This document shows, one piece after another, positions 907-8,079 of a stretch of 64,000 nt of DNA; position 1 is the stretch's first letter, and every line of letters begins with the position of its first letter. The stretch lies in NCBI RefSeq assembly GCF_916618755.1, contig NZ_CAKAKB010000001.1:806001-870000 (forward strand), in the 5' to 3' direction. The notes below the pieces were generated by a model. That model searched no databases and had not been told where the DNA came from. It saw nothing but the letters and a program-made list of their open reading frames with translations. The position numbers and the translations under genes are program-made. Origin of the DNA: Actinotalea sp. Marseille-Q4924 (GTDB lineage: Bacteria > Actinomycetota > Actinomycetes > Actinomycetales > Cellulomonadaceae).

Positions 907-1223
907 TCATGACGAAGGCCCGGACCTGATGGTCCGGGCCTTCGTCGTCGGGCACGGAGCCGCGCGCCCCGCGGTCCGTCGTCCCCAGGCGACCTGCCGG
1001 CGCTGGACGAGCAGAGCCGCCACGGCCGCTGTGGGGACCGTGGGGATGTCGTGCCGTGCTTCTCGTCGAACCGGACACGTCCCGTGCCTGCGACGAACAC
1101 CTCACCGTCGGGATCAGGTGATGGGAGTGTGCCTCGGGTGTGTGGCTGGCCACGTACCGGGGCGCCGGAGTGTGGTGCTCGCACCGATGCCTGCGGTGAC
1201 GGTCACGTCAGACCGTGGAGGGC
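907..1223. other. Intergenic stretch before the lipoprotein operon
   Basis: Apart from the hairpin at 911-946 I see no gene here. The open frames in it lack a Shine-Dalgarno sequence and any recognisable domain. The promoter of the downstream operon must lie here, but no convincing -35/-10 pair stands out. Confidence 0.5.
911..946 (+). terminator. Hairpin terminator orphaned from its tRNA
   Basis: There is a perfect 16-bp inverted repeat (911-926 with 931-946) around the loop TGAT, 5 bp after the tRNA fragment. No T-run follows. It probably terminated the original tRNA-fMet transcript and was separated from the intact gene by the integrated element. Confidence 0.75.
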
Positions 1224-2768
1224 ATGAACACGACTCACTTCACCCGCTTGTCGGCCATGTCCGTCGTCTCCGCGATGCTCGTCGCGGGCTGCTCGGGCGG
1301 GGACGACCTCGAGCCCGCGCAGGCGAGCACATCACCTGCCGCCCCTGCGGAGCTACGCCTCGCCTTCACGAGCGGACTTGCTGACGCGCACGTCGAGGCC
1401 CTGCAGGACGCGATCGCGACGCAGGAGGACTCCGGGCTCTCGATGACCGTCGACCAGTCCGCGGACGTCCAGCACACCCGCGACGGCGAGCAGCGGATCG
1501 TCCAGGCGGTCGCCGACGGCACCATCGACCTGGCGGTGGTCGGTGCGCGGGTGTTCAGTCAGCTGGGCGCGCACGACCTCGACGCGCTCGTCGCCCCGAT
1601 GGTGCTGACCAGCGTCGAAGCCCAGGAGGCGGTCTGGTCGACGGACCTCGTGGACCGGATGCTCGACGGTCTGGGGTCGGTCGGCGTCACCGGTCTCGCC
1701 GCGTTCCCTGGCCCGGTGCGACGCCCTGTCGCCGCGGGTGAACCGCTGATCGGCCGGGCCGACTTCGAGGACGTCCCGTTCTTCGTCTGGGACGGGGACG
1801 TCAGCGAGCTGACCGTCGAGGCGCTCGGAGCCACGGCCGTGGAGGTCACACCCGAGGAGCGCAACGCCGGCATCGAGGACGGGACGATCCACGCCTTCGA
1901 CAACACGCTGCTGTTCATGGCGGACAAGACGGACTGGGCCACCCGGGCGATGTCGTTGAACGTCGGGCTCTGGCCGTCCGTCAGCGTGCTGGTCGCCAAC
2001 CCCGACACCCTCGCGGGTCTGAGCGCCGAGCAGCGCACGGCGCTCCTGGATGTCGTCGAAGCCACCAGCTCGACAGCGTTCGACCGGCTGCCCGACGAGC
2101 AGGAGCTCGTCGACCAGGCCTGTGCCAACGGCTTCACCTTCGGTCTCGCCCCGGCGGAGGAGCTGGCCCACATCAGGGCCGCGGTCGAGCCAGTCCACGA
2201 ACGTCTCCGCGCCGACGACACGGTCGCTCTGTACCTCGACGAGATCGAGGCCCTGACCCGTGACGTCGAGACCGAGCTGCCCACCGTGCCCGACGGCTGC
2301 GACGGCACGACAGGGCCCGGTGGTGACACGGCGGAGCCGGGTGCGGCCCCGGCCGGGGCACCGACGGAGCTCGACGGGACCTACGCGATCACCTGGACGG
2401 TCGAGGACCTGACCGAGGCCCTGGGCGGGGAGGACAACCCCACCGCTGAGCAGGACGCACGCAACAACGCGGGCACCATCCAGCTGACCTTCGACCGCGG
2501 GCGTTACGACCTGGTCTACACGGCACTCGGCGACTCCTGCCCCGGCACGTTCATCGTGGACGGCGACCGCGTCGTCCTCACCGCCACCACCGTGCCGAGC
2601 GAGTGGGACTGCGGGGACGGGCTGGGGCAGACGGTGGCGGACGCAGCATGGCGCCTGGCCGACGGCGACCTGACGTTGTCGGACTGGGAGCTCTCGCCGA
2701 CGCCCGACGTCGGGTGGTTCACGCGCGCCCTGCTCGGGACCAAGCCGCTCGAGCGGCTGGAGGAGTAG
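1224..2768 (+). CDS. TRAP-type substrate-binding lipoprotein with extra C-terminal domain (1)
   Basis: Predicted surface-anchored ligand-binding protein of the DctP type. A lipoprotein signal peptide ends at the lipobox LVAGC (Cys23). The DctP-like domain covers about residues 38-350. After a Gly/Ala/Pro linker, about 130 C-terminal residues form a separate beta-rich domain starting near LDGTYAITWT, with two Cys (in SCPGTF and DCGDG) that could form a disulfide. No DctQ/DctM transporter genes are nearby; sensor kinases follow instead, so a sensing role is inferred. ATG 1224 is preferred because it gives a clean signal peptide. GTG 1215 is in frame but has no ribosome site, and the GGAGG before 1224 is unusually close. 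It is a paralogue of the next gene. Confidence 0.82.
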   Translation: MNTTHFTRLSAMSVVSAMLVAGCSGGDDLEPAQASTSPAAPAELRLAFTSGLADAHVEALQDAIATQEDSGLSMTVDQSADVQHTRDGEQRIVQAVADGTIDLAVVGARVFSQLGAHDLDALVAPMVLTSVEAQEAVWSTDLVDRMLDGLGSVGVTGLAAFPGPVRRPVAAGEPLIGRADFEDVPFFVWDGDVSELTVEALGATAVEVTPEERNAGIEDGTIHAFDNTLLFMADKTDWATRAMSLNVGLWPSVSVLVANPDTLAGLSAEQRTALLDVVEATSSTAFDRLPDEQELVDQACANGFTFGLAPAEELAHIRAAVEPVHERLRADDTVALYLDEIEALTRDVETELPTVPDGCDGTTGPGGDTAEPGAAPAGAPTELDGTYAITWTVEDLTEALGGEDNPTAEQDARNNAGTIQLTFDRGRYDLVYTALGDSCPGTFIVDGDRVVLTATTVPSEWDCGDGLGQTVADAAWRLADGDLTLSDWELSPTPDVGWFTRALLGTKPLERLEE

Positions 2769-2805
2769 CCTCGTGGTCACTTCCGCGTGCCCGAGAGAGG
2801 TCACC

Positions 2806-4311
2806 GTGCCGGGCGGAGCATCGCGGTCGCTCGGCCCCGTGGTCGTGGGGCTGGCGACCACACTCCTCGCAGCCGGGTGTGGTGCGCCCGGCGGCATCTC
2901 CCAGGCCGGCTTCGCCGCGCCGAGCGTCCGTCTCACGCTCGGGGTCGCGGATCCGCCCGGGTTCTACTCCTGGACCCTCGCCGAGGAGTTCGCCCGGCGG
3001 GTGGCGTCGGAGACCGACGGCGCGATCGAGATCGAGGTGACGCAGGGCGACGAGATCAGGGGCTGGAACCAGGCCCTGGCCCGGCGCGCGGTCGACGGCG
3101 ACCTGGACCTCACCCTGCTTCCCGCCCAGACCTGGGACGTGCTCGACGTCCCATCGCTGACGGCGCTCTACGTCCCCTTCCTCGTGCGCGACGAGGAGCA
3201 CCTCGACGCTCTCGCGACCGGCGACGTGGCCGACGAGCTCCTGGCCGGACTCGACGGGAGCGGCGTCACCGGTCTCGGGCTCCTGCCCGGCGGCATGCGG
3301 CACTTCTTCGCGGATGGTGCGCCGCCCGTCGTCCCGGACGATCTCGACGGGGTGGGTGTGCGGTCCGCCCTGTCGACGACGGTCTGGTCGATGATCGAGG
3401 CCTTCGGAGGTTCTCCGGACGACCCGAACGGGGCCGAGGTCGGCGAGGAGCTGAGAGCCGGCCGCGTCACCGTCCTCGACAGCATGTTCGCGCTGGCGGA
3501 CGGCCCCCTCGGGGCGCCGGCCGCGGCCGGCGACGTGGCGCCCTACCCCCTGGCCTTCACGCTGGTCGTCAACGACGGACGCCTCCAGCGGTTGCCGGTC
3601 GGACATCGGCAAGCCCTGCGGGACGCCGCGGTGGACACGACGGCCTGGGCCGCGAGCACCCGCCCGTCGGAGGCCCAGGAGGCGCAGGAGCTGTGCGAGC
3701 GGGCCCCCCGGGCAAAGGTCGTGCTGGCCGGCCCCGACGCGGTCCGGTCCTGGAAGGACGCGGCCGCAGACGTCGTCGGCGGGCTGCGGGCGGACCCGGC
3801 CGTGGACGCCCTCGCCGAACGCATCGACGCCCTCGCCGACCGGACCGAGCCGGCACCGGCGGTGCGGCCGTGCCACGGCGCCGAGGTCGACGCGGACGGC
3901 GACGCCGGGTCCTCGACGGACGGACAGAGCGCCAACATCCCGGTCGACTTCCCCGAAGGTGTCTACCGGAAGGAGATCACCGCCGAGGAGCTGATCGACG
4001 TCGGGGTCACCGCCGCGGATGCGCACGCCCACGCGGGCGTCTGGATGATGGTGATCCGCGACGGACGGTACGGACCCGAGGACGACCAGGAATGTCCCGG
4101 CAGCACCTACGACGTCGTCGACGGACGCATCGTGGTCACCCTCGGTCCGGAAGGACCGGGCTGCGGCGAAGCAGCGGGGCAGGTGCTGTACTCGGCGGGC
4201 TGGCGTCTCGACGGCGACCAGCTCATGCTCACCGATGTGCGGTCGGGCCATGGCAGCGACCTGCTCATCACGGGCATCTTCGGCTCGACTGCCTGGACCC
4301 GGCTCGAGTGA
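2806..4311 (+). CDS. TRAP-type substrate-binding lipoprotein with extra C-terminal domain (2)
   Basis: Second DctP-like lipoprotein. The signal peptide ends at the lipobox LLAAGC (Cys25). The ligand-binding domain (about 40-350) opens with VRLTLGVADPPGF and includes the family-like IEIEVTQGDEIRGW. A C-terminal domain of about 125 residues matches the one in the upstream protein, with Cys in ECPGST and GCGEAA. GTG 2806 is chosen because AGAGAGG lies 6 bp upstream and the signal peptide starts there; GTG 2773 is a longer in-frame option. The stop overlaps the start of the kinase gene by 4 bp, so the two are co-translated. With no membrane transporter partners present, it probably presents a ligand to the following kinases. 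Confidence 0.82.
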   Translation: MPGGASRSLGPVVVGLATTLLAAGCGAPGGISQAGFAAPSVRLTLGVADPPGFYSWTLAEEFARRVASETDGAIEIEVTQGDEIRGWNQALARRAVDGDLDLTLLPAQTWDVLDVPSLTALYVPFLVRDEEHLDALATGDVADELLAGLDGSGVTGLGLLPGGMRHFFADGAPPVVPDDLDGVGVRSALSTTVWSMIEAFGGSPDDPNGAEVGEELRAGRVTVLDSMFALADGPLGAPAAAGDVAPYPLAFTLVVNDGRLQRLPVGHRQALRDAAVDTTAWAASTRPSEAQEAQELCERAPRAKVVLAGPDAVRSWKDAAADVVGGLRADPAVDALAERIDALADRTEPAPAVRPCHGAEVDADGDAGSSTDGQSANIPVDFPEGVYRKEITAEELIDVGVTAADAHAHAGVWMMVIRDGRYGPEDDQECPGSTYDVVDGRIVVTLGPEGPGCGEAAGQVLYSAGWRLDGDQLMLTDVRSGHGSDLLITGIFGSTAWTRLE

Positions 4312-5660
4312 ACGACCTGGTCGCCCTCGCCGTCGGCGCTGCGTGGATCGCGGCGCTCGTCGTCGGGCGCGGCCGTCGCACGTTCGCGGTGCTCGCCGGG
4401 CTCGCCGCTCTCGCGTGGTTTGCGAGCCTGGCACTGCCGGTGGCCGTGCTCTGGCACCGCGGGCCCCTGGTCCACGTCCTCCTCGCCGGTGGGACCTGGC
4501 TGCCCCGCTCTCGGACGGCCCGCTCCGTCGTCGCCGCCGGCTATGCCGCGGCACTGACGCCGTGGCCGTGGGCCCGGCCATGGCTTGCCACGACGCTGGC
4601 CCTGGGGATCCTCCTCGCAGCGGCCGTCGAGCGTCGTCGACGCCGGGAGTCACCCGGGGCGAGCCCCTGGCGCGCCGCAACCGCCCTGGCATCCCTGTCC
4701 TTCGCGGCACCGCCGCTGCTCGCGTCAGCCGGCCTGTCGCGGAGCTGGGCCGTCCCCGTGCTGCTCGGATACGCCCTGACCCAGGCGCTCGTCATCGCCC
4801 TGCTCGTGGCGGCGGTCCGCCCCGGGTCGCCGCCGTGGGCAACGGACATCGCCGTCGAGCTCGGCGAGGCACCGCACGAGCGACTGCTGCAGGCGCTCGC
4901 GACGACCAGCAGGGACCCACGGACCGTCCTCGAGCAGGCGGAGATCGCGCGCGCGGCGGCTGACGAGCTGCACCGTCGGCTGGCGAGGCGTCAGGAGCGG
5001 CTCGCGGCGACCCTGGTGGAGATCGAAGGGTCGCGGCGTCGTCTCGAACGTGTGGACGCGCAGGAGCGTGGTGCGATCCGACGCGCCCTCGACGAGGTCG
5101 CGGTCGTCAGGCTGGAGAACGCCGTGAGTCAGCTGGAGGCGTTGGCCGGCGACGCCTCGACCTCGTCCGCGAGCACCGACCCTGTCGTCCGCGCGCTGCA
5201 CCACCTGCGCCTCGCCATCGCCGAGATCGACGGGCTGGGTGCAGGACTGGCACCCGAGGCGCTGGCCGCGGGGCTCGGCACCGCGCTCGCGCGCCTCGTC
5301 GCGGCGACGCCGGCCGAGGTGTCCCTGGAGGTGCCCGACGGGACGTCGTGGGACGCGGTGCCGCCGCGGGTCGCTGCCTGCGTGTACTACGTCGCGGCGG
5401 AGGCCCTCGCCAACGTGGTGAAGCACGCCGAGGCACGTGCGGTGCGGGTGCGTCTGCGCGTCGACGACCCGGTCGACGGTGTCGTGGAGATGGTTGTCAG
5501 CGACGACGGCACGGGCCTGCTCGGCACGCCGGGCGCCGGCCTTACCGGCCTGCGGGACCGGGCCAGGGAGGTCGGCGGTCGCGTGGAGATCGACTCGCGC
5601 CCAGGTCGGGGGACGAGGGTCAGCCTCACGGTGCCCGTCCGAGAGGCGGTACGGACGTGA
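4308..5660 (+). CDS. Membrane histidine-kinase-like protein lacking the phospho-accepting His
   Basis: 450-residue NarL-family sensor-kinase homologue. About six hydrophobic segments occupy residues 1-170, then a helical linker rich in Arg/Glu. The dimerisation region reads QERGAIRRALDEVAVVRL. The usual motif here is ERxRIARDLHDGxxQRL, so the acceptor His is replaced by Asp262 and the following Asp by Glu. The C-terminal ATPase domain is intact: N box EALANVVKHA (Asn369), DDGTGL near residue 400, GLTGLRDRAREVGG and a final GRGTRVSLTVP. It should bind ATP but cannot autophosphorylate in the usual way. It overlaps the genes on both sides by 4 bp. The next gene encodes a kinase with the reciprocal defect. 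Confidence 0.88.
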   Translation: MNDLVALAVGAAWIAALVVGRGRRTFAVLAGLAALAWFASLALPVAVLWHRGPLVHVLLAGGTWLPRSRTARSVVAAGYAAALTPWPWARPWLATTLALGILLAAAVERRRRRESPGASPWRAATALASLSFAAPPLLASAGLSRSWAVPVLLGYALTQALVIALLVAAVRPGSPPWATDIAVELGEAPHERLLQALATTSRDPRTVLEQAEIARAAADELHRRLARRQERLAATLVEIEGSRRRLERVDAQERGAIRRALDEVAVVRLENAVSQLEALAGDASTSSASTDPVVRALHHLRLAIAEIDGLGAGLAPEALAAGLGTALARLVAATPAEVSLEVPDGTSWDAVPPRVAACVYYVAAEALANVVKHAEARAVRVRLRVDDPVDGVVEMVVSDDGTGLLGTPGAGLTGLRDRAREVGGRVEIDSRPGRGTRVSLTVPVREAVRT

Positions 5661-7429
5661 CTCGGACCGTCCCGCCCGACTGGGTGACCGTGGTCGTCGC
5701 GGTGCTGGCGACCGTCCTGACGATCTCAGTGGCGGCGTTCACCCTGCAGCTGATCCCTGATGACCTCGCCGGGAGCCCTGCTTCCCTGGAATGGCTCTCC
5801 TCCGGGGGCCAGCGAGCCGCGTTCCTGACCGCCCTCGTCAGCCTCTCCTGCGCGGCGTTGATGGCAACGGTGGCCGGCGGCCGCGCGGCCTCGCCCGACG
5901 TGGCACTCGCCACGACGGTCGCGGCGGTGGGCTGGGCTTCCCTGGCCCCGGCGCTGTGGGCGACCACGCCGTGGGTGCGCGGCGCCGGCCTCGCGCTCAC
6001 GAGCCTGCTGCCCGCTGCCCTGCTGCACCTCGCGCTGGCCAGCCGCGCCCAACAGGCGACTGCTGCGGTGGAGCAGCGCACGAGGCTCACCGCGACCGTC
6101 GCCTACCTGGTGCTCGGTGCGTCGGGACTGCTGACAGCTCTCTCGCGAGACCCCTTCTCGGACGTCGGTTGTCTCGTCCGGTGCGAATCGGTGACCCCTG
6201 TCCTCGACGCGCCTCGGCTGGCTCACGCCTCCGGCGTCGCACTCCTCGTGCTGATGGGGTCGGTCGCCGCGAGCGCCTCTGCGGTGGCATCGGTGGACGC
6301 GCGGGCGGATCGCCTCCCATCCCGGGTGACGCAGCTGGTGCTCGCCCTGACCGCTGCCGTCGAGGCCGCATGGGCCTGGTGGCCGGGCTCACGGGTGGTC
6401 GGAGGTCCGCTTCCTCGGGACTCCGCGCACCTGCTGGTGACGCGCGCCGGGGCCCTTGCGCTTCTCGCGGGATGCCTGACCGCCGGGGTGCTGCTCCGCC
6501 TGAGGCGGCGCGCGGCACTGCGGCGCCTTGCACGGGAGATCACGGAGGTGACGCCGCCGACGACGGTGAGCGAGGTCGTCGCCGCCCGCCTGGGCGACCC
6601 GCGAGCGCGTCTGGACTACTTCGTCGCAGGCGACGAGGTCTGGGTCGACGAGGACGGTCGACCCTCGGAGCCGCCGCAGGACGATCCCGCGCGACGGAGC
6701 GCGTTGCTCCGTCGCGGGGGTGACGTGGTGGCGCGGCTGACCACGGCCGGCCCGCGGTCGCGCGCCGGGGACCTGCAGGACGCACTAGGTCCTGCCGCAC
6801 TCCTCGCGCTCGAGGCCGAGCGGACCCGTGCCGAGCAGATGCTCCGACTCGGCCACCTGACGGAGAGCCGCCGGAGCACCGTCCGGACGGCGGACCTCGC
6901 GCGCCGACGGGCCGAGCGCGACCTGCACGACGGCGCGCAGCACCTGCTGCTCGCCGCTTCCTTCGCACTCCAGGAGGCGCTCCGGCTCGCGCGCTCGGCG
7001 GGTCGCCCCGACCGCGCGGAGCGGTTGGCGACCGTCGCCTCCGAGGTGTCGGAGGCCGCCCGGGAGATACGGGACGTCGCCCACGGGATCTACCCGGTGC
7101 TGCTCGGCGACTCCGGACTGGTGCCGGCGCTCGAGGGGCTCGCGCGGGAGAGCGAGGGCGTCGTGACCCTGGACGCCACGCCTGTGCCCCGCGTGGACCC
7201 CTCGGTCGAGCTGACGGCGTACCTCGTCGCTGCGGCGGCGGTCCGTGCTGCCGGGGCCGGGCAGGTCCGACTGGCCGTCAGCCATGACGACGACACCCTC
7301 CGGCTGACCGTCGTCGGCGTGCCGCTCGACGACCACGACGTGCGCCCGCTGGTCGATCGCTCAGGAGCACTGGGCGGCACCATGGAGGGCATGGAGGCCA
7401 CCTGGCACCTGGAGCTCCCGTGCGCGTAG
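5657..7429 (+). CDS. Membrane histidine-kinase-like protein with His but degenerate ATPase domain
   Basis: 590-residue protein. About eight transmembrane segments (residues 10-290) are followed by a GAF-sized linker (about 300-390). The dimerisation domain has a canonical acceptor motif, [17 protein letters not shown] (His424). The C-terminal region aligns with the HATPase fold but lacks its key residues. The N box has become [13 protein letters not shown], with no Glu or Asn. The DxGxG motif has become [10 protein letters not shown], and the GTGLxG lid is missing; only [10 protein letters not shown] resembles the family. It should therefore accept phosphate but not bind ATP. It starts at GTG in a 4-bp overlap with the preceding ATPase-competent gene and overlaps the response regulator by 10 bp. 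Confidence 0.88.
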
Positions 7430-8079
7430 TCGTGGCCGAGGACAGCCTGCTGACACGGGAGGGCATCGTGCACGTCCTGGCACGGGCGGGCAACGAGGTC
7501 ACCGCTCAGGTCGGTGACGCCGAGGCGCTGCTCGCGGCGGTGGCCGTCGATGCTCCCGACCTCGTGATCGTGGATGTCCGGATGCCACCCACGCACACGA
7601 CCGAAGGCATCGAGGCCGCACGCGCGATCCTGGGTGCACATCCCGGCGTCGCGGTGCTGGTCCTCTCGCAGTACATCGAGCCCGGGTACGCCCTCACGCT
7701 CCTCCAGGAGCGTCCCGACGGCGTGGGATACCTGCTCAAGGAGCGGATCTCCGACGCGGCCGTCCTCGTCGACGCCGTGCACCGGCTCACCGAGGGCGAG
7801 TCCCTCGTCGACCCCACCATCGTCCGGACCCTCATGCGGCGGCAGCGGGACCCAGGACCGCTCGCCGGGCTGTCGGAGCGCGAGGTCGAGGTGCTCGCCC
7901 TCGTCGCGGAGGGTCTCTCGAACAAGGCCATTGCCGAGCGGCTGTTCATCACCGAACGGACCGTCGAGGCCCACCTCACACGGATCCTCCCCAAGCTCGG
8001 TCTGCGGGCCGGACCCGATGTGCACCGTCGGGTGCTCGCGGCGCTCGCCTTCGTCAAGGGCTCCCGACCGGCGGAGTGA
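7420..8079 (+). CDS. NarL/LuxR-family response regulator
   Basis: 219-residue DNA-binding response regulator. The receiver domain has acidic residues Glu7/Asp8, phospho-acceptor Asp52 in VIVDVRMPP and the switch Lys in YLLKERIS. The LuxR helix-turn-helix lies near residues 148-205 ([15 protein letters not shown], then [19 protein letters not shown]). It is the last gene of the lipoprotein-kinase operon and overlaps the His-bearing kinase by 10 bp, so it is the expected phosphate acceptor of the split kinase pair. Its DNA targets are not visible. Confidence 0.93.

Follow-up and report, generated by a model that had tools for sequence, protein, structure and literature searches.

The window analysed here is a 64,000-nucleotide stretch of DNA from Actinotalea sp. 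Marseille-Q4924 (contig NZ_CAKAKB010000001.1, positions 806,001 to 870,000 of the forward strand), and all coordinates below count from its first letter. It contains five plus-strand open reading frames that read as a single operon and encode, in order, two DctP-like lipoproteins, two membrane sensor kinases, here termed HK1 and HK2, and a NarL/LuxR-type response regulator. The second DctP gene overlaps HK1 by 4 bp, HK1 overlaps HK2 by 4 bp, and HK2 overlaps the regulator gene by 10 bp. Histidine kinases typically act as homodimers. A first-pass annotation of this DNA had noted that the two kinases are defective in complementary ways and had proposed that they form an obligatory split kinase working in trans; its coordinates, residue numbers and the overlaps it gave on either side of HK2 were all correct when checked against the sequence.

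HK1 (4308..5660, plus strand; 450 aa, GTG start) has an intact catalytic (ATP-binding) domain and a dead acceptor site. Both the sequence and the alignment place an aspartate, encoded by GAC at codon 262 (5091..5093, plus strand), at the position expected for the acceptor histidine, within IRRALDEV. The HATPase_c match covers residues 360-445 (5385..5642, plus strand), where N369, D399-x-G401-x-G403, G409/G411 and G435-T436 are all intact. HK2 (5657..7429, plus strand; 590 aa) is the mirror image. Its dimerisation and acceptor domain (HisKA_3, PF07730; residues 416-481; 6902..7099, plus strand), which has DesK as a relative in the PDB, carries the predicted phospho-acceptor His424 within RDLHDGAQ (codon CAC, 6926..6928, plus strand; sequence and alignment), while its catalytic domain (7154..7426, plus strand) is degenerate and, in the alignment, lacks the N-box Asn and the DxGxG, GxG and GT motifs. 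Pfam agreed, matching HK1 to HATPase_c but not HisKA_3 and HK2 to HisKA_3 but not HATPase_c. Sequence, Pfam and alignment thus all bear out what had been said of the two proteins, namely that HK1 combines an ATP-binding domain with Asp262 in place of the acceptor and that HK2 combines His424 with the loss of the ATPase motifs. The combination of HisKA_3 and HATPase_c in one protein, by which NarL-type kinases are recognised, was found in neither. Among PDB sequences, relatives of the HK1 catalytic domain include DevS, DosT and DesK, those near the HK2 acceptor domain were DesK/YocF entries only, and HK2 gave no match to any catalytic domain at E up to 0.01. Pfam at E up to 1 matched HK2 only to HisKA_3 and HK1 only to HATPase-type models, and neither protein showed an HPt or CheA-specific domain. 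These motifs make it unlikely that both kinases of the window autophosphorylate, as two active kinases of the AbrC type would.

Orthologous pairs were collected in three ways. A contig scan with HK1 gave five relatives, of which two, both from Actinomycetota, belong to pairs: L009 in a Nitriliruptoraceae metagenome-assembled genome and L013 in a genome of the Streptosporangiaceae. Within the window's family 221 genomes were searched, and two of them held pairs (L044 in G150; L045 and L046 in G210). HK2 profile searches, covering 396 genomes of the order, 396 of the phylum, 325 of the class and smaller groups around matches, added the both-kinase loci L047, L049, L050, L052, L064, L076, L087 and L088, as well as an HK2 lacking HK1 at L048, L051 and L093. 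There are therefore at least 14 both-kinase loci (the window, the two Actinomycetota records and 11 loci in eight genomes of the window's phylum) and at least 17 HK2s, these counts being lower bounds because few candidates were scored per genome (seven in the family search, three or four in the HK2 profile searches). Within the window's own genus, 18 other genomes held no match as strong as those pairs (seven candidates per genome scored; the best, at E 1.2e-20, was confined to residues 251-445), so the module is patchy. It is conserved across distant relatives. Proteins were classed as HK1, HK2 or related single kinase by a profile score ratio of 1.6 and not by motif, and the single kinases are next-best matches rather than a random sample. 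L103, which lies on the same contig as L048, was left out of every tally.

Across these loci, complementary loss in HK1 and HK2 exceeds chance. In a joint alignment the N-box Asn, DxGxG, GxG and GT motifs were retained in 14/14 HK1s, whose acceptor position is occupied by Gln or Arg (three each), Asp or Ala (two each), Gly (one) or, in L013, L049 and L076, His. Conversely, His-Asp-Gly was retained in 17/17 HK2s, and the N-box Asn was missing from all 16 that could be assessed (L076 is incomplete), with the G motifs gone or reduced to remnants. Related single kinases keep both sites: the acceptor His is present in 42 of 43 (the exception, L081, has Asp) and the N-box Asn in 40 of 42 assessable (not L070 or L071; L082 is cut off). 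Profile matches at E up to 0.001, compared for 12 of the 14 HK1s and 12 of the 17 HK2s, repeated this pattern, with HATPase_c in 12/12 HK1s and 0/12 HK2s and HisKA_3 in 1/12 HK1s and 10/12 HK2s, so that the matches mirror each other in the orthologues as they do in the window. A sequencing error at codon 262 was dismissed as insufficient to account for the loss in the window, since the next two residues are also altered (LHDG to LDEV) and the His is likewise absent from 10 of 13 orthologous HK1s. No single protein combines acceptor His and ATP pocket in the window or in 10 of the 13 other both-kinase loci; HK1 has both in L013, L049 and L076. The prediction that orthologues would share the same reciprocal loss thus held throughout for the assessable HK2s and for 11 of the 14 HK1s.

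The two classes differ in further signatures. HRG-x-L occurs in 13/14 HK1s but in 0/17 HK2s and 0/43 single kinases. A C-x(2,3)-C pattern was found in the reading frames of 16/17 HK2s, 8/43 single kinases and 1/14 HK1s, and in the window it corresponds to HK2 Cys172-x3-Cys176 (6170..6184, plus strand), both cysteines being invariant across 12 aligned HK2s. A terminal Pro-Cys is found in 13 of 17 HK2s (Cys589 in the window; 7415-7429) and, taken together with the C-x3-C motif, hints at redox or disulphide chemistry, though 21 of 43 single kinases share this ending. The HK2 frame of L076 (L076:5077-6450) stops just past the acceptor domain and before the regulator, which reflects either an assembly error or a genuine loss of the degenerate catalytic domain in its entirety. 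In the HK1s of the window, L044, L045 and L046 the stretch between the membrane part and the acceptor helix is shortened or lost; other aligned HK1s keep it, and to us it looks GAF-like.

Sequence conservation follows the same division. For this comparison, the distance correlation and the ancestral analysis, 13 of the 14 loci were used (the L076 HK2 being incomplete). Mean identity in the acceptor helix was 0.426 for HK1, 0.625 for HK2 and 0.617 for 39 single kinases, and in the catalytic domain 0.478, 0.295 and 0.484, respectively, the exclusion of L070, L071, L081 and L082 raising the means of the single kinases slightly. Over 78 locus pairs, HK1 was the more conserved protein in the catalytic domain in 78/78 and in the acceptor helix in 0/78. 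Each kinase therefore holds the conservation of a single kinase in one domain and loses it in the other.

In a tree of 71 kinases, from which L051, the L076 HK2 and L082 were left out, HK1 forms one clade (100/100) and HK2 another (100/99), both branching among complete HisKA_3 kinases, the single kinases of this classification. That one gene was broken in two was rejected, as each protein has its own membrane part and the clades are separate; they are a pair of paralogous kinases rather than the halves of a single gene. The HK1 and HK2 trees share three main subgroups (L052/L064/L087/L088; L049/L050; window/L009/L013/L044-L047), although the subgroup containing the window has poor internal resolution and is ordered differently in the two. 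Genome G684 has two complete modules (L050 and L052) whose HK1 and HK2 fall in matching subgroups, so species history alone does not explain the pairing. Distances among HK1s and among HK2s correlate with r = 0.88 over the 13 loci, a value reached in 0 of 20,000 permutations. All assessable HK2s share the catalytic loss, which is therefore most simply ancestral. The HK1 His is kept by one member in each of three subgroups, which implies five losses on the best tree (four to six in 200 bootstraps) if no regain is assumed. On that assumption, HK1 would have lost its His about five times, after HK2 had lost its ATP pocket. Repeated loss of the HK1 His once HK2 lacked a catalytic domain is what would be expected if phosphoryl groups flow from ATP on HK1 to the His of HK2, leaving the HK1 His spare.

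The regulator of the window (7420..8079, plus strand; PF00072 and PF00196, with alignment) has an intact receiver Asp52 and a DNA-binding domain of the LuxR type, and the receiver Asp is intact in 13/13 aligned regulators. A regulator gene is linked in 11 of the 14 both-kinase loci, and a contig edge lies beside HK2 in L049 and L088 and beside HK1 in L087. HK1 and HK2 are contiguous in four of the 14 loci only (window, L009, L044 and L088); the other ten have one or more DctP genes between them, and in L064 and L087 HK2 is divergent from HK1. The first-pass annotation had also described the kinases as co-translated. This fits the overlapping genes of the window but, given the gene order across the 14 loci, is ruled out as a general rule and is a feature of a few loci rather than of the family.

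Both lipoproteins of the window were identified by Pfam (PF03480) and alignment. The first (1215..2768, plus strand; 517 aa; E 2.1e-13) has the lipobox LVAGC and a DctP domain followed by a C-terminal extension; the second (2773..4311, plus strand; 512 aa; E 1.1e-19) has the lipobox LAAGC and an Arg at 197. The association of such genes with the kinase pair, as annotated, is real. They were present at 13 of 14 HK1-bearing loci, the exception being L088 on a 5-kb contig, and at 0 of 43 single-kinase loci, several of them running up to a contig edge; the stretch examined around each match reached about 7 kb upstream and 2.5 kb downstream, less near the end of a contig, so that DctP genes farther away may have escaped notice. 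The TRAP permease DctM gave no match in eight of nine genomes searched, including the window's (G334 has one; DctQ was not searched), three of the eight being less than 90% complete and the same search matching seven of 14 control genomes. The window's genome has no DctP matches other than these two genes. Ordinary TRAP transport was rejected on the missing DctM match in the window's genome, and a role of these lipoproteins in TRAP transport is unlikely; with only these two DctP matches present, they are probably co-receptors, and the module suggests that DctP proteins can act in sensing, apart from transport. Arg197 of the second lipoprotein lies at what we take to be the carboxylate-binding position of TRAP binding proteins. 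Arg occupies that position in nine of 25 aligned DctP rows, including the second lipoprotein but not the first, so a carboxylate ligand is only weakly suggested. In a survey of solute-binding proteins, DctP is predicted to bind dicarboxylates, and ligand-loaded binding proteins are described as able to stimulate receptors, sensor kinases among them (PMC9602780). At L101:1-9633 five DctP-like genes in a row, of which the first is truncated at the end of the contig, adjoin a window-like regulator; the genome, G871, is 74% complete, also has an HK2 and gave no DctM match.

HK1 and HK2 probably work as one histidine kinase. HK1 would bind ATP and act in trans on HK2, phosphorylating His424; the two would most likely form a heterodimer through their dimerisation helices, and HK2 would hand the phosphoryl group to Asp52 of the adjacent NarL-type regulator. 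The direction of transfer, from the HK1 ATPase to the HK2 His, is well supported by the recurrent reciprocal decay of orthologous pairs. This part of the earlier proposal stands, in a less absolute form. HK2s also keep Asp-x-x-x-Gln/His residues, which are presumably those that confer phosphatase activity in this kinase class (Gln at the phosphatase position in 15 of 17 HK2s in the joint alignment, His in one and Ala in one). A ChrS-Q191A variant of Corynebacterium glutamicum is called phosphatase deficient (PMC9491836). HK2 alone should therefore act as a phosphatase, and HK2 together with HK1 as a kinase. The DctP lipoproteins, lacking a TRAP permease, would probably bind a small extracellular ligand and thereby set the pairing of HK1 with HK2.

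Several observations weigh against this reading or limit its reach. In L013, L049 and L076 the His of HK1 is present and autophosphorylation would be possible, which means that these three pairs are not obligatorily split, contrary to what had been proposed. An intact His in orthologues of the first kinase is among the findings that the first-pass annotation had named as contradicting its proposal, and it was thus encountered in part; the other 11 HK1s lack the His. Identity is lower in HK1 than in HK2 also before the acceptor helix (0.359 versus 0.416) and in the second helix (0.386 versus 0.468), so part of the divergence of the HK1 acceptor domain may be general. The 78 locus pairs are not independent of each other, and the HK1-HK2 distance correlation reflects in part the shared descent of the loci. 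The two complete modules of G210 (L045 and L046) fall in one subgroup, whose weakly supported branching order is not the same for HK1 as for HK2, and are uninformative. The window's two proteins have the longest branches (1.76 and 1.51), which makes this copy the least typical. In L064 the regulator gene follows HK1 and not HK2, and in L087 no regulator was found within 2.4 kb after HK2.

HK1 could also phosphorylate HK2 in trans with each kinase in a homodimer of its own, or within a higher-order cluster, a variant that overlaps the reading above and that we consider rather unlikely. Sequence cannot separate these geometries, and CheA3 and CheA4 are described as acting through transient P4-P1 contact within a cluster (PMC3591291). 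The dimerisation-helix framework of HK1 has been kept despite the loss of the His, which fits pairing with HK2, but homodimerisation would keep that framework too. If, as seems improbable, HK1 were a pseudokinase merely modulating HK2, another cellular kinase would have to phosphorylate HK2. The window's genome has eight other HisKA_3 matches, and HrrS of C. glutamicum is reported to cross-phosphorylate ChrA with a ChrS pseudokinase present (PMC9491836). However, the complete ATP motifs of all HK1s, at the level of active-looking single kinases, would be needless in a pure modulator, and the two kinases are inherited together.

That HK2 binds ATP in an unusual way and autophosphorylates, with the loss in HK1 incidental, is very improbable. 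While the C-terminal half of its catalytic domain (DRVGALGG) is partly kept and a remnant DDG persists in four HK2s (L048-L051), the N-box Asn is gone wherever it could be assessed, and identity in the G1-G2 region is 0.231, compared to 0.581 in single kinases. Kinase function might also be dying, with other donors phosphorylating the regulator and HK2 serving only to dephosphorylate it. The retained phosphatase residue would suit this account, but a dying kinase would lose the ATP motifs that HK1 keeps in 14/14 loci of divergent lineages, and we regard it as highly doubtful.

Taking transfer from HK1 to HK2 as the preferred reading, a more comprehensive proposal can be advanced tentatively: the modules may represent a widespread receptor class of Actinomycetota in which transporter-less TRAP-type binding proteins govern how two half-dead paralogous kinases pair. 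On its own the acceptor partner would be a phosphatase, and the two together would form a kinase, which would make the output switch-like. The ATP pocket of HK2 would have gone first and worked as a ratchet, followed by about five separate losses of the HK1 His.

Split and paired kinases are already known. In Mycobacterium tuberculosis, also a member of the Actinomycetota, Rv0600c/Rv0601c/TcrA comprises a kinase in two genes, one for a catalytic and one for an acceptor protein, plus a regulator. The nearest paired-kinase precedent is FasB/FasC/FasA of group A Streptococcus, which likewise has two sensor kinases and one regulator per locus and for which a heterodimer is proposed, with the FasB kinase domain phosphorylating His246 of the pseudokinase FasC (2025; PMC12675982). 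It differs in its ComE-like regulator and in a FasB DHp domain that keeps two histidines, and the sections of that report covered here describe no DctP partner (PMC12675982); in HK1/HK2, the catalytic partner has lost its own acceptor His in 11 of 14 pairs. CheA3 and CheA4 of Rhodobacter sphaeroides resemble the arrangement proposed for HK1 and HK2 in that each is described as unable to autophosphorylate alone, one giving the ATPase and the other the acceptor His and phosphatase, and modelling of this kinase/phosphatase split predicts a switch-like output; these proteins are of the CheA type (HPt/P1) and lack whole domains (PMC3591291). HK1 and HK2, known here from sequence, are instead full-length HisKA_3-type membrane kinases with domains decayed in place and lipoprotein partners. 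Hik36/Hik43 of Synechocystis has likewise been called a split histidine kinase and has one regulator, but it is a cheA homologue divided over two genes, not two paralogous kinases (PMC7656254). AbrC1/AbrC2/AbrC3 of Streptomyces coelicolor is, like the present module, actinobacterial with two kinases beside one regulator, but the cytoplasmic part of each kinase is reported to autophosphorylate on its own His, so that function is not split (PMC4428217). In C. glutamicum the native paralogues ChrS and HrrS are reported to heterodimerise in two-hybrid assays, and an evolved ChrS has no working catalytic domain; that change is a laboratory-evolved frameshift, however, and the truncated ChrS is described as giving no significant heterodimer signal, with the ChrS His not needed (PMC9491836). 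In agreement with the first-pass annotation, no described NarL-type pair with mutual loss and DctP partners came up in the literature searched, with subscription papers mostly outside it.

A conserved kinase pair with repeated complementary loss amounts to a natural experiment on dividing two-component signalling between proteins. The pairs offer a ready-made separation of function, the HK1s with and without the His form a series of intermediates for the order of events, and the proposal from CheA3/CheA4 that a kinase/phosphatase split leads to switch-like responses could be tested on them.

Three of the single kinases have defects of their own. At L081:3268-5238 (minus strand), on a 5.7-kb contig, a kinase outside the HK1 clade has Asp at the acceptor His and an intact catalytic domain, an independent loss of the acceptor; it was rejected as part of a further split pair, the profiles finding no HK1, DctP or regulator beside it. 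Single HisKA_3-type kinases with an intact acceptor His and a degenerate catalytic domain were found at L070:2515-4557 and L071:6986-8785, in two genomes of one genus. These too were rejected as split pairs, the profiles placing nothing that resembles HK1, DctP or the regulator near them, and they possibly represent another, unlinked split or pseudokinase family.

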